Positions 40,212 through 50,466 of a DNA stretch of 64,000 bases are shown piece after piece. The number at the start of each line of letters is the position of its first letter. Position 1 is the stretch's first letter. The stretch is from contig JAKOVR010000209.1 of assembly GCA_029782025.1 (NCBI GenBank), forward strand, positions 1 to 64,000, read 5' to 3'. The DNA comes from Actinomycetes bacterium. GTDB lineage: Bacteria > Actinomycetota > Acidimicrobiia > Acidimicrobiales > Acidimicrobilacustridaceae. Below the pieces are notes generated by a model. That model saw only the letters and a list, made by a program, of their open reading frames with translations. It did no database searches and was not told the DNA's origin. A program made the translations under genes and the position numbers.

Positions 40212-40523
40212 GTGAGCGACAGCGACGGGCCGCAACCGGCGCCCGGGTTCTACCCCGACCCGGCCGGGTTGTACGCGGCGCGGTACTGGGACGGCACCCG
40301 CTGGACCGAGCAGGTCGACGGGCCGCCCACGGCCGCCACCGGCGTTCCCGGCAGCCCCTTCGGTCCTGCGCCGCCACTCCCACCCCAGAAGAAGACCTGG
40401 ACCGACAAGTCGGCCGGCGAGAAGTTCGGCACGGTGGTGATCTGGGGGTTGTTCATCGGCATGATCCTGGCCGTGGTCGCCGTGGGCACCTGTTTCGCCA
40501 TCATCGCCGCGGGCAGCCGGTGA
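40212..40523 (+). CDS. DUF2510 small membrane protein, 103 aa
   Basis: The N-terminal motif PGFYPDPAGLYAARYWDGTRWTEQV is a DUF2510 domain, a Trp-rich module of actinobacterial membrane proteins. One TM helix is near the C terminus (GTVVIWGLFIGMILAVVAVGTCFAIIA). GTG40212 follows GAGGAGGGTGA. It ends 18 nt before the Lgt-like gene and could be the first gene of that operon. Confidence 0.75.
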   Translation: MSDSDGPQPAPGFYPDPAGLYAARYWDGTRWTEQVDGPPTAATGVPGSPFGPAPPLPPQKKTWTDKSAGEKFGTVVIWGLFIGMILAVVAVGTCFAIIAAGSR

Positions 40524-40541: not shown

Positions 40542-41369
40542 GTGTACCCGGTCGCCTTCCACCTCGGCTCCTGGGCCGTCCCCACCCACGACCTGTTCAT
40601 CGCCGTCGGGCTGCTGGCCGCCACGCTGTGGTTCCTCCACGAAGCCCGGGTGCAGCAGGTGCACGACCCCCGCATCTGGTGGATCGTGGCCGGCGCGCTG
40701 ATCAGCGGGGGGCTCTTCGCCCGGACCTCGGCGGTGGTGCACTGGGCCGACGACCCCGAGCGCAGCAACCTGGCCGAGCTGTTCGTGCACGGCGGTCGCA
40801 GCATCCTCGGGGGGTTGGCCGGCGCCTACGCCGGGGTGCTCGTCACCAAGCGCCTGGTGGGCTACCGGTCCTCGACCGGCGACCAGTTCGCCCCGGCGGT
40901 GGCCCTCGGCATGGCCGTCGGGCGCATCGGCTGCCTCCTCACCGAGCAGATCGGCACCCCGACGTCGTTGCCGTGGGGCTACACGCCGCCGGCCGACCTG
41001 GCCGCGGGCATCCCCGAGTGCCCACCGTGCACGCTCGGGGTGCCGCTGCACCCGTCGTTCCTGTACGAGGTCCTGTTCCAGCTCGGTGTCTTCGTGGTGC
41101 TCGTCCGCTGGCGGCGGCGGCCCCACCACGCCGGTGACCTGTTCCTCGGGTATCTCGCCGCCTACGGCGCCTTCCGGTTCGCGGTCGAGTTCGTGCGCGG
41201 CAACCGGGTGCTCTGGTTCGGCCTGTCCGGCCCGCAGGTCTTCCTGCTCGTGACCCTGCCCCTGCTCTACACCCGCATCGCCCTGCTCGTGCGCCGACGC
41301 CGGTCGGCCCCGGTCGCCGAGCTCGACCTGTCGCGGTTCCCCCCACCCCTCGTCGAGGTACCGGCATGA
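40542..41369 (+). CDS. Diverged Lgt-like prolipoprotein diacylglyceryl transferase homologue
   Basis: 275 aa polytopic membrane protein. The Lgt fold is clear: VHGGRSILGGLAGAYAG, AVGRIGCLLTE, HPSFLYEVLFQ, GAFRFAVEFVRGN and a final GPQ...L helix. Compared with the E. coli enzyme, the essential His of HGGL is Leu89 and the conserved Asn after GRIG is Cys131, while Arg128 and the late Arg are kept. So it may not act as a standard Lgt. It is translationally coupled (ATGA) to the radical SAM gene, which suggests a dedicated lipid role. Confidence 0.75.
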   Translation: MYPVAFHLGSWAVPTHDLFIAVGLLAATLWFLHEARVQQVHDPRIWWIVAGALISGGLFARTSAVVHWADDPERSNLAELFVHGGRSILGGLAGAYAGVLVTKRLVGYRSSTGDQFAPAVALGMAVGRIGCLLTEQIGTPTSLPWGYTPPADLAAGIPECPPCTLGVPLHPSFLYEVLFQLGVFVVLVRWRRRPHHAGDLFLGYLAAYGAFRFAVEFVRGNRVLWFGLSGPQVFLLVTLPLLYTRIALLVRRRRSAPVAELDLSRFPPPLVEVPA

Positions 41370-42958
41370 CCGCCACGCTCGAACCCGGCACCGGCATGCC
41401 GCTGCGCGACCACCGCATCCGACGCTACGTCCACGCCTTCTGCCCGACCTGCCACCACGCCGGGGCCGACCTCCCGACCGTGCGCTCGCTCCCCGGCTAC
41501 CTGGCCGAGGCGGAGGGCGCGGTGTGGCTCGTGCGGTCCTGCCCGATCCACGGCCGGATCGTGACGCTCTACGACGAGCACCCCGAGATCCTCACCTACC
41601 TCGAGCAGTGGACCGCGCCCACCAAGCACCACGGCCCCGACACCCCCGGCAACTTCGATCCGATCCCGGGTGGCTACCTGCGCGGCCTCGGTGAGCTGCA
41701 GACCCAGCACACCTGCATCCTCCTCGAGGACATCACCGAGGTGTGCGACCTGCACTGCCCGACCTGCTTCGCCGACGCCGGGCCCCGCCGGCAGGGCGTG
41801 GTCCCGATGGCCGAGGTGCTGGCCAACGTCGACCAGCGACTGGCCCGCGAGAACGGCCGGCTCGACGTGCTGATGCTGAGCGGCGGCGAGCCCACGCTGC
41901 ACCCCGACTTCGCCGAGCTCCTCGACCGCCTGATCGAGCGCGACATCGTGCGCATCCTCGTCAACACCAACGGGGTTCGGGTCGCCCGCGACGACGCCGT
42001 GCTCGCCGCCCTCGCCCGCCACCGCCGGCGGGTCGAGGTCTACCTGCAGTTCGACGGCTTCCGGGCCGAGACCCACCGCCACCACCGCGGCGCCGACCTC
42101 GGCGGGCTGAAGGCACGGGCCATCGAGCGACTCACCGGGGCCGGCGTGTTCGTCACCCTCACCATGACCATCGCCCTCGGCATCAACGACGACGAGATCG
42201 GCGACGTGGTGAACCTGGCCATCGACACCCCCTACGTCGGGGGCGTGGCCCTGCAGCCGGTGTTCGGGTCGGGCCGGTCCGAGGCCATCGACCCGCTCGA
42301 CCGGCTCACCCACACGGGCACGCTGGCCCGGCTCGGGCCCCAGACCGGCGGGCGGGTGACGTGGCGCGACCTGACGGCGTTGCCGTGCTCGCACCCGCAC
42401 TGCTCGAGTGTCGGGTACATGCTGCGCACCGACCGCGGCGACTGGCGGTCGCTGGTGGACCTGATCGGCCACGACACGATGCTGGCCCACCTCGACCTGG
42501 TCAGCAACCGCGTGGTCGACCCCGGGCTGCCGCCGGCCCTGCGGGCGCTGGTCAAGGAGTCGCTCCTCGGCCTGCTGTCGAACCAGTCGTCGCTGTCCAA
42601 CCCGGGGATGGCCGAGCTGTGGCGCAACGTGTGCACGAGCTGCGACCTCGGCGTGGGGTCGCTGCTGCGCTTGCTCGGATCGTCGATGGGCAACGGCGAG
42701 CGCCTCCGCCGCGAGCTCGCCCACCGCGTCACCCGGATCACGGTGAAGCCCTTCATGGACCTGCACACCATGATCGAGGAGCGCCTGCTGCAGTGCTGCG
42801 TGCACGTCGGCACCCGGTCCGACGAGCAGGACCAGTGCGCCCCGTTCTGTGCCGTGCAGGCCTGGTCGGCGCTCGGCGAGCAGAAGCCGTCCAGCCGGGC
42901 CGGGGCCTCGGCCGAGGCACCGGTGGCGTTCCTGACGGGGATCGGCGGGCGGGGATGA
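41366..42958 (+). CDS. Radical SAM protein, MJ0619/tetraether-synthase-like
   Basis: 530 aa. N-terminal zinc-ribbon-like Cys: FCPTC (Cys26, Cys29) and SCPIHG (Cys59). The SAM [4Fe-4S] motif CX3CX2C is Cys127/131/134 in CDLHCPTCFA, followed by LSGGEPT (172-177) and VNTNGV. The C-terminal half has more Cys: PCSHPHC, CTSC and QCCVHVG...CAPFC. Order and spacing match the archaeal MJ0619/Tes family, which joins lipid tails, and its class D methyltransferase annotation. Unlike those, the extra GCPxDCGxC cluster before the SAM motif appears absent. Function is inferred; lipid C-C bond formation or methylation are both open. Confidence 0.72.
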   Translation: MTATLEPGTGMPLRDHRIRRYVHAFCPTCHHAGADLPTVRSLPGYLAEAEGAVWLVRSCPIHGRIVTLYDEHPEILTYLEQWTAPTKHHGPDTPGNFDPIPGGYLRGLGELQTQHTCILLEDITEVCDLHCPTCFADAGPRRQGVVPMAEVLANVDQRLARENGRLDVLMLSGGEPTLHPDFAELLDRLIERDIVRILVNTNGVRVARDDAVLAALARHRRRVEVYLQFDGFRAETHRHHRGADLGGLKARAIERLTGAGVFVTLTMTIALGINDDEIGDVVNLAIDTPYVGGVALQPVFGSGRSEAIDPLDRLTHTGTLARLGPQTGGRVTWRDLTALPCSHPHCSSVGYMLRTDRGDWRSLVDLIGHDTMLAHLDLVSNRVVDPGLPPALRALVKESLLGLLSNQSSLSNPGMAELWRNVCTSCDLGVGSLLRLLGSSMGNGERLRRELAHRVTRITVKPFMDLHTMIEERLLQCCVHVGTRSDEQDQCAPFCAVQAWSALGEQKPSSRAGASAEAPVAFLTGIGGRG

Positions 42959-43272
42959 GGACCCGGCCCGAGTCGTTCGACCCGCCGGCGGTCGGTGGGC
43001 CGGGACGGCCGGGCGTGACCGGCTTCGATCCGCTGCACCTGTGCATCTACACCACCATCTGCCTCATCGCCTGGCTGGTCACCCCGCCGGCCGCGGCGAT
43101 GGTGTTCAGCGCCATCGCCCTGCGGGGCTACGGGCGGGCCCGGCGGGCCGGCCTGCTGTCCAGCCGCTGCCTCCTCGGCGACACCCGGCTGGTGCTGGCC
43201 TACCTCGCCGTCGTCTTCGTCGCCTCCACCGCCGTGACCGTCGTGACCGTGGCCCACGCCCTCGGACGATGA
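42955..43272 (+). CDS. Small two-TM membrane protein in the radical SAM operon
   Basis: 105 aa, not recognised. Pro/Gly-rich N terminus (1-25), TM helix 1 about 28-58 (LCIYTTICLIAWLVTPPAAAMVFSAIAL, written here from the sequence in two parts: LCIYTTICLIAWLV and PPAAAMVFSAIAL), a basic loop GYGRARRAGLLSSR and TM helix 2 about 78-100 (LVLAYLAVVFVASTAVTVV). ATG42955 overlaps the radical SAM stop (ATGA). Confidence 0.65.
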   Translation: MRTRPESFDPPAVGGPGRPGVTGFDPLHLCIYTTICLIAWLVTPPAAAMVFSAIALRGYGRARRAGLLSSRCLLGDTRLVLAYLAVVFVASTAVTVVTVAHALGR

Positions 43273-43865
43273 CCACGCCCGTTCCCGCTGGCCCCGATCC
43301 CCGACCGGCGCCGCCGACGCTGACCCTGCCCGCCCGCAGGGTCCCGCTGCTGTGGGCCGGGGCCATGGCCGTGCTGGTCGGCGGGGCCGGCCTCGAAGCC
43401 GTCAGCCCGGCGGCGTTGCACGAGGTGGTCGGTGGCCTCTGGGCCGCCGCGCTCGGCGTGCTCGTGGTGGCCGCGAACCGATGGCGGTCCACCGTCGACG
43501 ACGACGGCATCTCCCTCGCCGGCGTCGTGACCCACCGTCAGCTCCCGTGGTCGACGATCCGGCTCGTCACGGTCCGACGGGTCGAGCCCCCCCGACGGTC
43601 GGCCCGGCTCCGCCAGCTGCCCCAGGCCCTCCCCACCCAGGACCGCTACGCGTTGATCGCGGTGCGCACCGACGGCTCCGAGGTGCAGCTCACCCCGGCC
43701 GACTCGTGGGAGTCGATCGAACGCCGGAACTACCCGCAGCTGGCCGTGGCGATGCAGGCCCGGGCCGACGCCGCCCGGGCCCTCACCTCGGATCGCCGGC
43801 CCGCTCCGCCGGCCCTCCCGCCCAACCCCTGGTCCCCGCCCCCGCTCCCCCCCGCCGCGCCCTGA
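43269..43865 (+). CDS. PH-domain-like membrane protein, last gene of the operon
   Basis: 198 aa. Two TM helices (about 27-45 and 52-68) are followed by a beta-rich domain with WRSTVDDDGISLAG and HRQLPWSTIRLVTVRR, the pattern of short bacterial PH-like (bPH) domains attached to membrane anchors. The tail is Pro-rich. ATG43269 overlaps the preceding stop (ATGA). It ends 3 nt before palindrome copy 3. Confidence 0.65.
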   Translation: MTTPVPAGPDPRPAPPTLTLPARRVPLLWAGAMAVLVGGAGLEAVSPAALHEVVGGLWAAALGVLVVAANRWRSTVDDDGISLAGVVTHRQLPWSTIRLVTVRRVEPPRRSARLRQLPQALPTQDRYALIAVRTDGSEVQLTPADSWESIERRNYPQLAVAMQARADAARALTSDRRPAPPALPPNPWSPPPLPPAAP

Positions 43866-43868
43866 CCC

Positions 43869-43915
43869 CCTTGGGTGCGTAAGGGTGCGCTATGCGCGCC
43901 CTTACGCACCCAAGG
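43869..43915. repeat. 47-bp palindromic intergenic element, copy 3
   Basis: Same 17-nt arms as copy 1; the 13-nt centre differs by one base. It lies between convergent genes and contains the TAA stop (43902-43904) and final codons of the histidine kinase. Confidence 0.9.
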
Positions 43916-45170
43916 GATGGTGGAGCGGGAGGCGGAGGCGGAACTCGGCGCCGGGACCGTCGGTGCGGTTGGCCGCGGTGACCGAGCCGCCGTGACGCGT
44001 GGCGATCTCGTGCACGATGGCCATGCCGAGACCCGAGCCGGTGGAGCGCCGGCCGGTCACGAACCGGTCGAAGATCGTGTCGAGCACCGAGGGCTCGATC
44101 CCCGAACCCCGGTCCGCCACCACCACCCGGGCGCACCCGGGGGCGTCGGGATCGACGCTCACCGTGACCACGACGTCGAGGCCGCCGCCGTGCCGGAAGG
44201 CGTTGCCGACGAGGTTGCGGACGGCCCGGCGCACCAGCGGGACGTCGGCCTCGACGACCACCTCGTCGCTGGCCGTCCTCGCCTCGGGGAAGTCGAGCAG
44301 CACCTCGTCGACGAGGAGGTCGAGCCGCACCCTCTCCGGTTGACGCAGATCGGCCCCCGCATCCATCCGGGCCAGGAGCAGGAGATCGTCGACGGTGGCG
44401 CTCGTCTCGGCCGCGATCGCCTCCGCCCGCGCCAGCGACGCCGCCCGGTCGGCACCCTCCAGACGGCCGGCCTCGATGGTCGTGCGCAGGGCGGCCAGCG
44501 GGGTGCGCAGCTCGTGGGCGGCATCGGCCAGGAACCGCTCCTGCTGGTGGAGCGACGCCAGCGAGGGACGCAGGCTCCGCCCCGCCAACCAGGCGCCGAG
44601 GCCGACGCCGAGCAGGGCCAGGGCGGCGACGCCGCCCCAGACGGTCACCAGCAGGCGGCGGTGCTCGTCGAAGGACGGCCGGGCGTCGAGCACCACCAGC
44701 ACCGAACCGAGCGGATCGTCGGATCCCTCCACGATCTGGGGGAACCCGCTGACGTACACCGGGCGGCCGCCGTCGGCCCCGGCGTCGAAGTCGTCGTGGT
44801 TGTATCCGGCCAGGCTGTCGGCGGCGTAGACCACCAGCCGGTCGTCGCTCACCGGGACCAGCGGCGCGTTCGAGCTCCGGTACACGACCGTCGGGGCCTT
44901 GCCCCCCGAGCCGGCGGCCACGACGTAGACGTCGGCCTCGTCGAGGACCCCGGATCCTTCCACCCCGCTGGTGTCGAACGAGCCGTCGTCGTTGATGTCC
45001 ACGGCCCGGTCGGCGATGGTGCCGAGCCGGTCGACGTCGGCCAGCAGCGCGTCCTCCCGCAACCGGCTGTCGGTCACGGTGACGACGCCGGCCAGCACCA
45101 CGAGGCCCACCGCCGACGAGACGGCGTAGGCGAGGGCCAGGCGCCACCGCAGGCGACGCAGGCCGGCCAT
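43902..45170 (-). CDS. Sensor histidine kinase
   Basis: 422 aa from ATG45170. TM1 about 8-28, an extracytoplasmic sensor (about 30-165), TM2 about 172-195 (VTVWGGVAALALLGVGLGAWLAG). HisKA: FLADAAHELRTPLAALRTTIE with the phospho-His. HATPase: VRRAVRNLVGNAFRHGG (N box), VVADRGSGIE (G1) and GSGLGMAIVHEIATRHGG (G2). There is no HAMP domain. The last residues HHPLGA and TAA are encoded by a repeated palindrome. It is 38 nt behind its response regulator. Confidence 0.92.
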   Translation of the reverse strand: MAGLRRLRWRLALAYAVSSAVGLVVLAGVVTVTDSRLREDALLADVDRLGTIADRAVDINDDGSFDTSGVEGSGVLDEADVYVVAAGSGGKAPTVVYRSSNAPLVPVSDDRLVVYAADSLAGYNHDDFDAGADGGRPVYVSGFPQIVEGSDDPLGSVLVVLDARPSFDEHRRLLVTVWGGVAALALLGVGLGAWLAGRSLRPSLASLHQQERFLADAAHELRTPLAALRTTIEAGRLEGADRAASLARAEAIAAETSATVDDLLLLARMDAGADLRQPERVRLDLLVDEVLLDFPEARTASDEVVVEADVPLVRRAVRNLVGNAFRHGGGLDVVVTVSVDPDAPGCARVVVADRGSGIEPSVLDTIFDRFVTGRRSTGSGLGMAIVHEIATRHGGSVTAANRTDGPGAEFRLRLPLHHPLGA

Positions 45171-45208
45171 GGCCGGCGTGTCGCTCGACCGCGCCGGGCC
45201 GGCCACGC

Positions 45209-45886
45209 TCAGGACGCCCCGTCGGGGGCGGTCCCGAGGAGGTACCCGATCCCCCGCACGGTGTGGATCAACGGCGGGCTCCCGAGCTTGCGCCGCAGCT
45301 CCTTGATGTGGACGTCGATCACGTTGGACATCGGGTTGACCAGCTCGTCCCAGCACCGCTCGATGAGCTCGGTGCGCGACACGACGGTGTCGGCCTGGGT
45401 GGCGAGGACCTCGAGCAGCCGGTACTCCTTCCGGGCCAGGGGGAGCAGCACGCCGTCCCGGCGCACCTCGCACCGGGCGGTGTCGACCACGAGGTCGCCC
45501 ACGGTGACGAGCGGCGGGCGGGCATCGCGGGCCCGGCGACAGAGCGACCCCACCCGCACCACCAGCTCGTCGAGGGCGAACGGCTTGACGAGGTAGTCGT
45601 CGCCGCCGGCGTGGAACCCCTCGACCCGGTCGGCCACGGCGTCGCGGGCGGTGAGGAACAGCGCCGGCACGGCGTCGCCCCGCTCACGGCGCTGGGCCAG
45701 GAGGGCGAGCGAGTCGCCCGACGGCAGCATGCGGTCGAGGACGACGCAGTCGTAGCGGTTGAGATCGAGGGCCATCTCGGCCTCGGGCAGGTCGTCGGCG
45801 ACGTCGACGGCGAAGCCGGCGGCCTCCAGCCCGGCCTTCACGCCGTCGCGCAGCGCGGCATCGTCTTCCACCACGAGGACCCGCAT
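45209..45886 (-). CDS. OmpR/PhoB-family response regulator
   Basis: 225 aa. Receiver domain: MRVLVVEDDAALRDGV (acidic pair), phospho-acceptor Asp in CVVLDRMLP, Thr in LFLTARD and Lys in DYLVKPFALDEL. The winged helix (about 125-220) has LPLARKEYRLLEVLATQADTVVSR and VIDVHIKELRRKLG then TVRGIGYLL. ATG45886 is chosen because MRVLVVED is the canonical start and a TACGTT box sits 8 nt upstream. The target may include the genes around it. Confidence 0.93.
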   Translation of the reverse strand: MRVLVVEDDAALRDGVKAGLEAAGFAVDVADDLPEAEMALDLNRYDCVVLDRMLPSGDSLALLAQRRERGDAVPALFLTARDAVADRVEGFHAGGDDYLVKPFALDELVVRVGSLCRRARDARPPLVTVGDLVVDTARCEVRRDGVLLPLARKEYRLLEVLATQADTVVSRTELIERCWDELVNPMSNVIDVHIKELRRKLGSPPLIHTVRGIGYLLGTAPDGAS

Positions 45887-45894
45887 CGAGGCCC

Positions 45895-45900
45895 AACGTA
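45895..45900 (-). promoter_or_regulatory. -10 box TACGTT, two-component operon
   Basis: Ends 8 nt before ATG45886 on the minus strand. Confidence 0.5.
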
Positions 45901-46004
45901 CTCCGGCCCTCGATCGTCCGTGCTCCACCGCTGGCATGCCGGCATCCTGGCCGGCCCCGCATGAAGCCCCGGTGAACCGGGCCTCCCCGCCGCCGCGGCC
46001 CGGG

Positions 46005-50466
<4,462 letters not shown>

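Follow-up and report, generated by a model that had tools for sequence, protein, structure and literature searches.

Positions 1 to 64,000 of contig JAKOVR010000209.1, from an Acidimicrobiales metagenome-assembled genome (MAG; GenBank assembly GCA_029782025.1), form the stretch that was analysed, and this whole stretch is called the window here. It contains an operon in which a paralog of the prolipoprotein diacylglyceryl transferase Lgt, here named LgtL, stands beside rSAM, a radical S-adenosylmethionine (SAM) enzyme that resembles the archaeal tetraether lipid synthase Tes (MJ0619). With them are encoded a small membrane protein whose transmembrane (TM) helix closes on a Gly-x-Cys (G-x-C) motif and a second membrane protein, p105. 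rSAM, LgtL and one to three G-x-C proteins are inherited as one unit. The module looks like an undescribed route to an unusual lipid, which is probably fixed to the G-x-C protein. We think that it may serve dedicated membrane protein lipidation, in which LgtL would lipidate the G-x-C cysteine of an uncleaved protein and the Tes-like enzyme would couple or modify the lipid tails. This reading is tentative, and we give it a probability of about 0.45.

Co-inheritance of the module genes

A scan of a genome collection provided 80 related loci, distributed over Actinomycetota (including Mycobacterium/Mycolicibacterium, Nocardia, Janibacter and Agromyces), Chloroflexota, Armatimonadota, Gemmatimonadota, Acidobacteriota, Planctomycetota, Pseudomonadota, Omnitrophota, Moraniibacteriota and UBP7; a Bacteroidota plasmid is one further locus. 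LgtL adjoins rSAM in 77 of the 80 loci and the remaining three are cut by contig ends, so that all evaluable loci are paired (77/77). In a survey of 296 actinobacterial genomes, with thresholds of E ≤ 1e-80 for rSAM and E ≤ 1e-60 for LgtL, both genes were found in the identical nine genomes and in none elsewhere, and p105 was present in six of these nine and likewise absent from the rest of the 296. Moreover, the pairwise distances of rSAM and LgtL are correlated, with a Mantel r of 0.92 over 74 loci and of 0.87 in the actinobacterial core (0/2000 permutations). The arrangement is not a chance one, because the 77/77 pairing is accompanied by identical presence and absence in 296 genomes. The coupling of Lgt-like and Tes-like genes, which a first-pass annotation had proposed from the letters of this DNA, is therefore upheld by these three lines of evidence; the pairing is also retained in about ten phyla and is not a peculiarity of this genome. 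Its patchy distribution in Actinomycetota (9/296) suggests horizontal spread.

Several features accompany particular loci. Plasmids of Mycobacterium avium (pS2b) and M. branderi (loci L140 and L141) carry the module, each with two tandem G-x-C genes. In six mycobacterial loci (L034, L043, L045, L046, L048 and L052) it lies between repeated gene blocks (F2, F8, F13, F15, F22), one family of which resembles a peptide-type substrate-binding protein in L045. Five divergent loci have within the module a membrane methyltransferase of the ICMT/phospholipid-methyltransferase type, with a Cys-rich tail in L102 and L108; it is a possible accessory step.

The proteins of the module

The window rSAM is recognised as a radical SAM protein (Radical_SAM, E 2e-21) and has an HMPTM zinc ribbon (PF23545) at its N-terminus. 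Sequence search gave Tes/GDGT-MAS (7TOL) as its sole full-length relative with known structure (E 1e-32), and its AlphaFold2 (AF2) model (mean confidence, pLDDT, 82) shares the whole-length fold of 7TOL: the only full-length match is 7TOL/7TOM (Foldseek E 7e-32, TM 0.72/0.78, TMt 0.78), all other folds having TMq ≤0.36, with the peptide maturases SkfB and SuiB next best (TMq ~0.33). The Tes-type fold claimed earlier is thus borne out, and so is the described cysteine layout, with C26/C29, C59/H62, C127-x3-C131-x2-C134 and a Cys-rich C-terminus. The rubredoxin-type site C26/C29/C59/H62 and the radical SAM (RS) cluster C127/C131/C134 are invariant in 81 members and match the rubredoxin-type site C9/C12/C33/H36 and the RS CX3CX2C motif of Tes, and the C-terminal cysteines (C346, C423, C426, C477, C478, C491 and C495) include counterparts of C338, C455, C456 and C470 of MJ0619. 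Two cysteines are extra with respect to Tes, the family-invariant C117 and the near-invariant C341 (79/81).

Residue and cut-off tests nevertheless indicate that the window rSAM has the architectural frame of Tes without being Tes itself. Its score with the Tes family NF045702 of NCBIfam is 156.3 bits, under the equivalog cut-off of 450 bits. The ligands of the N-terminal auxiliary cluster of Tes, [4Fe-4S]N (C73/C77/C80/His), are G/R/G/Q in the window protein; they are absent in the actinobacterial rSAM set and present in 22 of 37 others. Compared with MJ0619, Met439 is changed to Lys and Tyr459 to Val. In Tes, which acts on the tails of bound lipids, Met439 is a ligand of the labile cluster, and both residues are held important (PMC9433317). 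The best NCBIfam score is that of TrsS (NF045646; 206.4 bits, E 6e-61), and membership there is ruled out by the cut-off of 490 bits. Homologues in haloarchaea and M. vanbaalenii, 28–30% identical, adjoin a methyltransferase and lack the LgtL and G-x-C genes that set rSAM apart from Tes as well. In the rSAM tree, a core clade of 45 entries is separated with full support from Tes and from the methyltransferase-linked homologues, those of haloarchaea and M. vanbaalenii included; in the deeper LgtL-linked groups, Tes and methyltransferase-linked sequences are intermixed, with weak support and long branches. These methyltransferase-paired homologues (L142:3977-6345, L143:3887-6165 and L145:3965-6128) belong to the superfamily of rSAM and have another constant partner. 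No phage match was found for rSAM.

LgtL belongs to the LGT family PF01790 (E 6e-35, 121 bits vs a cut-off of 24.9), and its AF2 model (pLDDT 89) has E. coli Lgt (5AZB) as its only match, which substantiates the lipid-transferase fold assigned at first pass. Its score with the equivalog model TIGR00544 is 77.8 bits, under the cut-off of 118.9 bits. The residues of 74 paralogs were compared with those of E. coli Lgt, whose numbering is used here, and of a further 19 LGT proteins, almost all of which are canonical. R143 is kept in 72/74 paralogs and R239 in 74/74 (both are Arg in the window), together with G154, the H-P-S/T-x-x-Y block (Y201) and mostly E243. The position of Asn146 is occupied by Cys in all 74 (Cys131 in the window, codon 40932-40934), Tyr26 is changed to His or Gly in 69 of them, and most have lost Asn149 and Glu151. 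In the window protein, which is not a regular Lgt, three residues of the network that binds phosphatidylglycerol (PG) are changed, Tyr26 to His, Asn146 to Cys and Glu151 to Gln. In Lgt, PG is the diacylglyceryl donor and the active site faces the periplasm; E151 contacts the donor PG in the first binding site, and E. coli mutants of Y26 and E151 are inactive (PMC4728403). Because these two residues, essential in E. coli Lgt, are changed in LgtL, its donor or mechanism may differ. The loss of His103 (HGGL motif), which is Leu in the window LgtL, was ruled out as a marker of an unusual Lgt, since His is found in just 3 of the 19 other LGT proteins sampled. Cys at position 146 is also present in one of the 19 comparison proteins taken as canonical, so that in some bacteria the principal Lgt may be of this Cys146 type.

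A second, stronger LGT match was present besides LgtL in 12/12 other genomes checked. LgtL is there additional to a canonical Lgt, and would therefore have an acceptor or donor of its own. The window's own genome (a 96% complete MAG) has LgtL as its only LGT match, with LspA present. Most relatives of this genome have a canonical Lgt, and a missing stretch of the MAG is the simplest reason for its absence here.

The DUF2510 protein of the window has one TM helix followed by the ending VVAVGTCFAIIAAGSR, in which Cys94 is encoded at 40491-40493. A G-x-C profile built without the window gave this open reading frame (ORF) as its sole significant match in 64 kb (E 7e-5, next 0.37). By profile or motif, such proteins are found in 73/81 loci, one to three per locus. 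The motif, [A/V/L]-G-x-C, closes a TM helix, with about 10 residues after it in Actinomycetota; among the segments collected, Gly is at position -2 in 52/54, position -1 is variable and often bulky, and a median of 10 residues follows the Cys. Typical endings are GWALLSITSVGFCTGLNPEMY in Mycobacterium, VIVAGLCTALTGAP in Chloroflexota, LLGFGTCLSS in Armatimonadota, LAGFGLCGA in Massilia and LVLLGTC in Omnitrophota, and in the Chloroflexota loci L073 and L076 a soluble domain comes after the Cys. Among TM ORFs, G.C at a TM end is found in 51 of 140 near rSAM, vs 4 of 217 at a distance (p 2e-19). Net charge is higher before the TM helix than after the Cys in 43 of 53 proteins, with the opposite in three, and since most have their positive charge ahead of the helix, the Cys is predicted at the outer face. 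The N-terminal parts differ (DUF2510, Pro-rich, zinc ribbon) and little beyond the TM-GxC part is conserved, a pattern as for a modification site.

Bacterial lipobox and C-terminal sorting signals such as MYXO-CTERM are short TM-plus-Cys signals that a dedicated membrane enzyme recognises. The G-x-C motif differs from them in its consensus, in its usual place near the C-terminus after the last TM helix, and in belonging to one locus instead of many proteins; the lipobox of N-terminal signal peptides, [LVI]-[ASTVI]-[GAS]-C, was not found in these proteins. In 12/12 actinobacterial genomes the G-x-C protein was detected at the locus only (counting one row per genome, in which close neighbours are possibly merged), and a survey of 72,556 plasmids gave the mycobacterial type only in the three records that bear the >60%-identical rSAM. 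When the Chloroflexota profile alone was searched against ten genomes, the one extra place was a second complete operon, LgtL-GxC-GxC-rSAM-p105 (L161:3210-7071), in a Rubrobacter MAG (G373:C24) with its other copy at L074. A general, genome-wide sorting signal is ruled out by this detection at module loci only, the Chloroflexota type included. The G-x-C protein has a weak Pfam likeness to PF24191 (E 6e-4, below cut-off); a phage origin was discarded, tblastn giving no phage match.

p105 is an optional core partner of the module. About three TM segments are predicted in it, and two of its cysteines (D-P-L-x-L-C ... S/T-R/K-C-x-L) are invariant. Cys8, Gly44 and Cys50 are invariant in its aligned stretch. 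Its profile matches 43 loci of Actinomycetota, Chloroflexota, Armatimonadota, Planctomycetales and UBP7; apart from a single weak match, it is missing from mycobacteria, Massilia and Alphaproteobacteria.

Operon layout in the window

The coordinates of the ORFs confirm the four genes described at first pass, all on the same strand, with an ATGA overlap at each junction (41366, 42955 and 43269). The transcription unit begins one gene before them, with the DUF2510 gene, which 18 nt separate from the LgtL gene downstream. The inverted repeat after gene 4 likely closes the unit as a bidirectional terminator. Of the two small membrane proteins initially included, p105 is a core part of the module and the other is not conserved, and the G-x-C protein upstream had been overlooked. 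A blastp search with the product of gene 4, p198, matched the window's own locus, L001, and gave no homologue from the 80 related loci; p198 is thus ruled out as a core part, and the gene is probably incidental and outside the module. The only names that annotators give the genes are 'prolipoprotein diacylglyceryl transferase family protein', 'radical SAM protein' and 'hypothetical protein'. Downstream on the minus strand, a two-component regulator pair (43902-45937) lies between the operon and a long ORF (46005-49670) that reads like a LacZ-type beta-galactosidase.

Table 1. Coordinates of the operon in the window and of the methyltransferases within divergent modules.
Feature	Position	Strand	Basis
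G-x-C acceptor-type small membrane protein (candidate), 103 aa, DUF2510	40212-40523	+	DUF2510 E 7e-9; profile match
Lgt paralog LgtL, 275 aa	40542-41369	+	PF01790; AF2 model
Tes-like radical SAM enzyme rSAM, 530 aa	41366-42958	+	family and fold matches
p105, small membrane protein, optional core partner	42955-43272	+	conserved-profile matches; no Pfam or NCBIfam family matched
Gene 4 (p198), 198 aa, N-terminal half hydrophobic plus soluble part	43269-43865	+	ORF; non-conserved
Inverted repeat, 23-nt arms, 3-nt loop	43868-43916	unstranded	between operon and convergent downstream gene
Module methyltransferases of five divergent loci	L068:2235-2948; L093:9281-9880; L102:5573-6547; L108:10532-11509; L110:6853-7419		

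Proposed lipidation route and its alternatives

In the route that we propose, the G-x-C protein would be inserted with its Cys at a lipobox-like position, at the outer end of the TM helix and with the positive charges inside. LgtL would transfer a glycerolipid unit to this Cys, using an active site in which R143 and R239 are kept and the residues for headgroup selection or hydrogen bonding (Y26, N146 and E151) are changed. It would need an outer-face thiol, because the Lgt fold and the substrate-side arginines are kept, and the G-x-C protein supplies one. Cleavage by LspA is not expected, since the residue before the Cys is often bulky, and the protein would stay whole. From the cytoplasmic side, the Tes-like enzyme would join or functionalise the ends of lipid tails in the middle of the bilayer, either ahead of the transfer, so as to produce the donor, or following it. 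Both invariant cysteines of p105 are predicted to be cytoplasmic, and this protein might dock rSAM at the membrane or serve it there. The result would be a protein with an unusual, possibly membrane-spanning, lipid anchor. A more specific version, in which a tail-coupled (membrane-spanning or macrocyclic) lipid is attached by a thioether to the outer TM-end Cys of an uncleaved protein in many phyla, is doubtful. The joint role in making or moving an unusual lipid had been left at tail joining, tail methylation or attachment to a protein; of these options, attachment combined with tail chemistry fits the new evidence best.

Some considerations count against this proposal. Judging from its residues, LgtL without Tyr26 and Glu151 may not transfer diacylglycerol. 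Homology by itself does not imply tail coupling, because rSAM is without Met439, Tyr459 and the ligands of the N-terminal cluster, all of them held important in Tes. The G-x-C motif was discovered in the same loci used for the enrichment count, the independent tests being the second operon and the profile match in the window. Moreover, a strict motif search found no G-x-C in L089, L090, L092 and L102, of which L089 has S/T-x-C-like variants. Finally, the G-x-C proteins could be structural subunits and not substrates.

The main idea of the first-pass annotation was a free-lipid pathway, in which the Tes-like enzyme couples or methylates phospholipid tails, LgtL moves or remodels a glycerolipid and the small proteins are anchors or chaperones, with no protein lipidation. 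The Tes fold of rSAM and the small, membrane-bound nature of p105 and the G-x-C proteins suit this pathway, and both Tes and the bacterial membrane-spanning lipid synthase Mss produce free membrane-spanning lipids. Mss is reported to share the catalytic architecture of Tes and to couple the tails of bacterial glycerolipids (PMC13274423); it has been described with Ger/PlsA ether-lipid genes in Bacillota and not with an Lgt paralog. We consider the pathway rather unlikely: regular Lgt needs a thiol acceptor, and a suitably placed thiol is the sole strictly conserved feature of the otherwise variable partner. Neighbour clustering across the loci, in which families were not all annotated, showed no recurring ether-lipid or acyltransferase family.

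The same clustering showed no recurring exporter or protease family, which disfavours a maturation similar to that of ribosomally synthesised and post-translationally modified peptides (RiPPs). There, rSAM would modify the cysteines of the G-x-C protein or p105, for instance to a thioether, and LgtL would add a lipid or anchor the product. Small dedicated partner genes, sometimes duplicated in tandem and with a conserved C-terminal segment, do resemble precursor genes, and after Tes, rSAM comes closest in fold to SkfB and SuiB. Their TMq of ~0.33 is nevertheless far from the full-length match, which is to Tes only, and the prediction puts the invariant G-x-C Cys on the outer side, at a distance from an enzyme in the cytoplasm; in our opinion, such maturation is unlikely. 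Membrane thiol or metal chemistry, with the cysteines of LgtL, the G-x-C protein, p105 and rSAM as a relay for redox or metal chemistry and with an Lgt fold turned to a non-lipidating use, would account for an invariant Cys in all four parts and for the loss of Tyr26, Asn146 and Glu151 from LgtL. It is very unlikely given that LgtL retains its Lgt fold along with R143, R239 and the H-P-S/T-x-x-Y block, and that no redox partner gene recurs in the clustering. Ordinary lipoprotein processing, with LgtL as a spare Lgt for neighbouring lipoproteins and rSAM beside it by chance, can appeal to the PF01790 assignment, to lipoprotein-like genes adjoining some loci (family F46 included) and to the lack of another Lgt in the incomplete MAG, and is strongly disfavoured by the identical presence and absence of LgtL and rSAM in 296 genomes, by the canonical Lgt found alongside and by an active-site Cys invariant in 74/74 LgtL.

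Zeng et al. counted 456 bacterial homologues of Tes and proposed for them the synthesis of membrane-spanning branched glycerol dialkyl glycerol tetraethers (brGDGT) (PMC8941075). In a literature search that did not extend to subscription journals and preprints, the bacterial homologues of Tes were discussed solely as candidates in the making of membrane-spanning lipids (PMC8941075, PMC13274423), and no paper was found that pairs an Lgt paralog with a radical SAM enzyme, in line with the initial remark that no system with this set had been described. One large group of the many bacterial Tes homologues has here constant and different partners, namely an Lgt paralog, a G-x-C membrane protein and often p105, from which a concrete protein substrate is predicted. 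The presence of the module in the culturable genera Mycolicibacterium, Nocardia, Janibacter, Agromyces and Massilia, and on mycobacterial plasmids, makes the prediction directly testable. If the lipid sits on the G-x-C Cys, protein lipidation would gain a new branch; otherwise the module would still represent a lipid pathway that has not been described.

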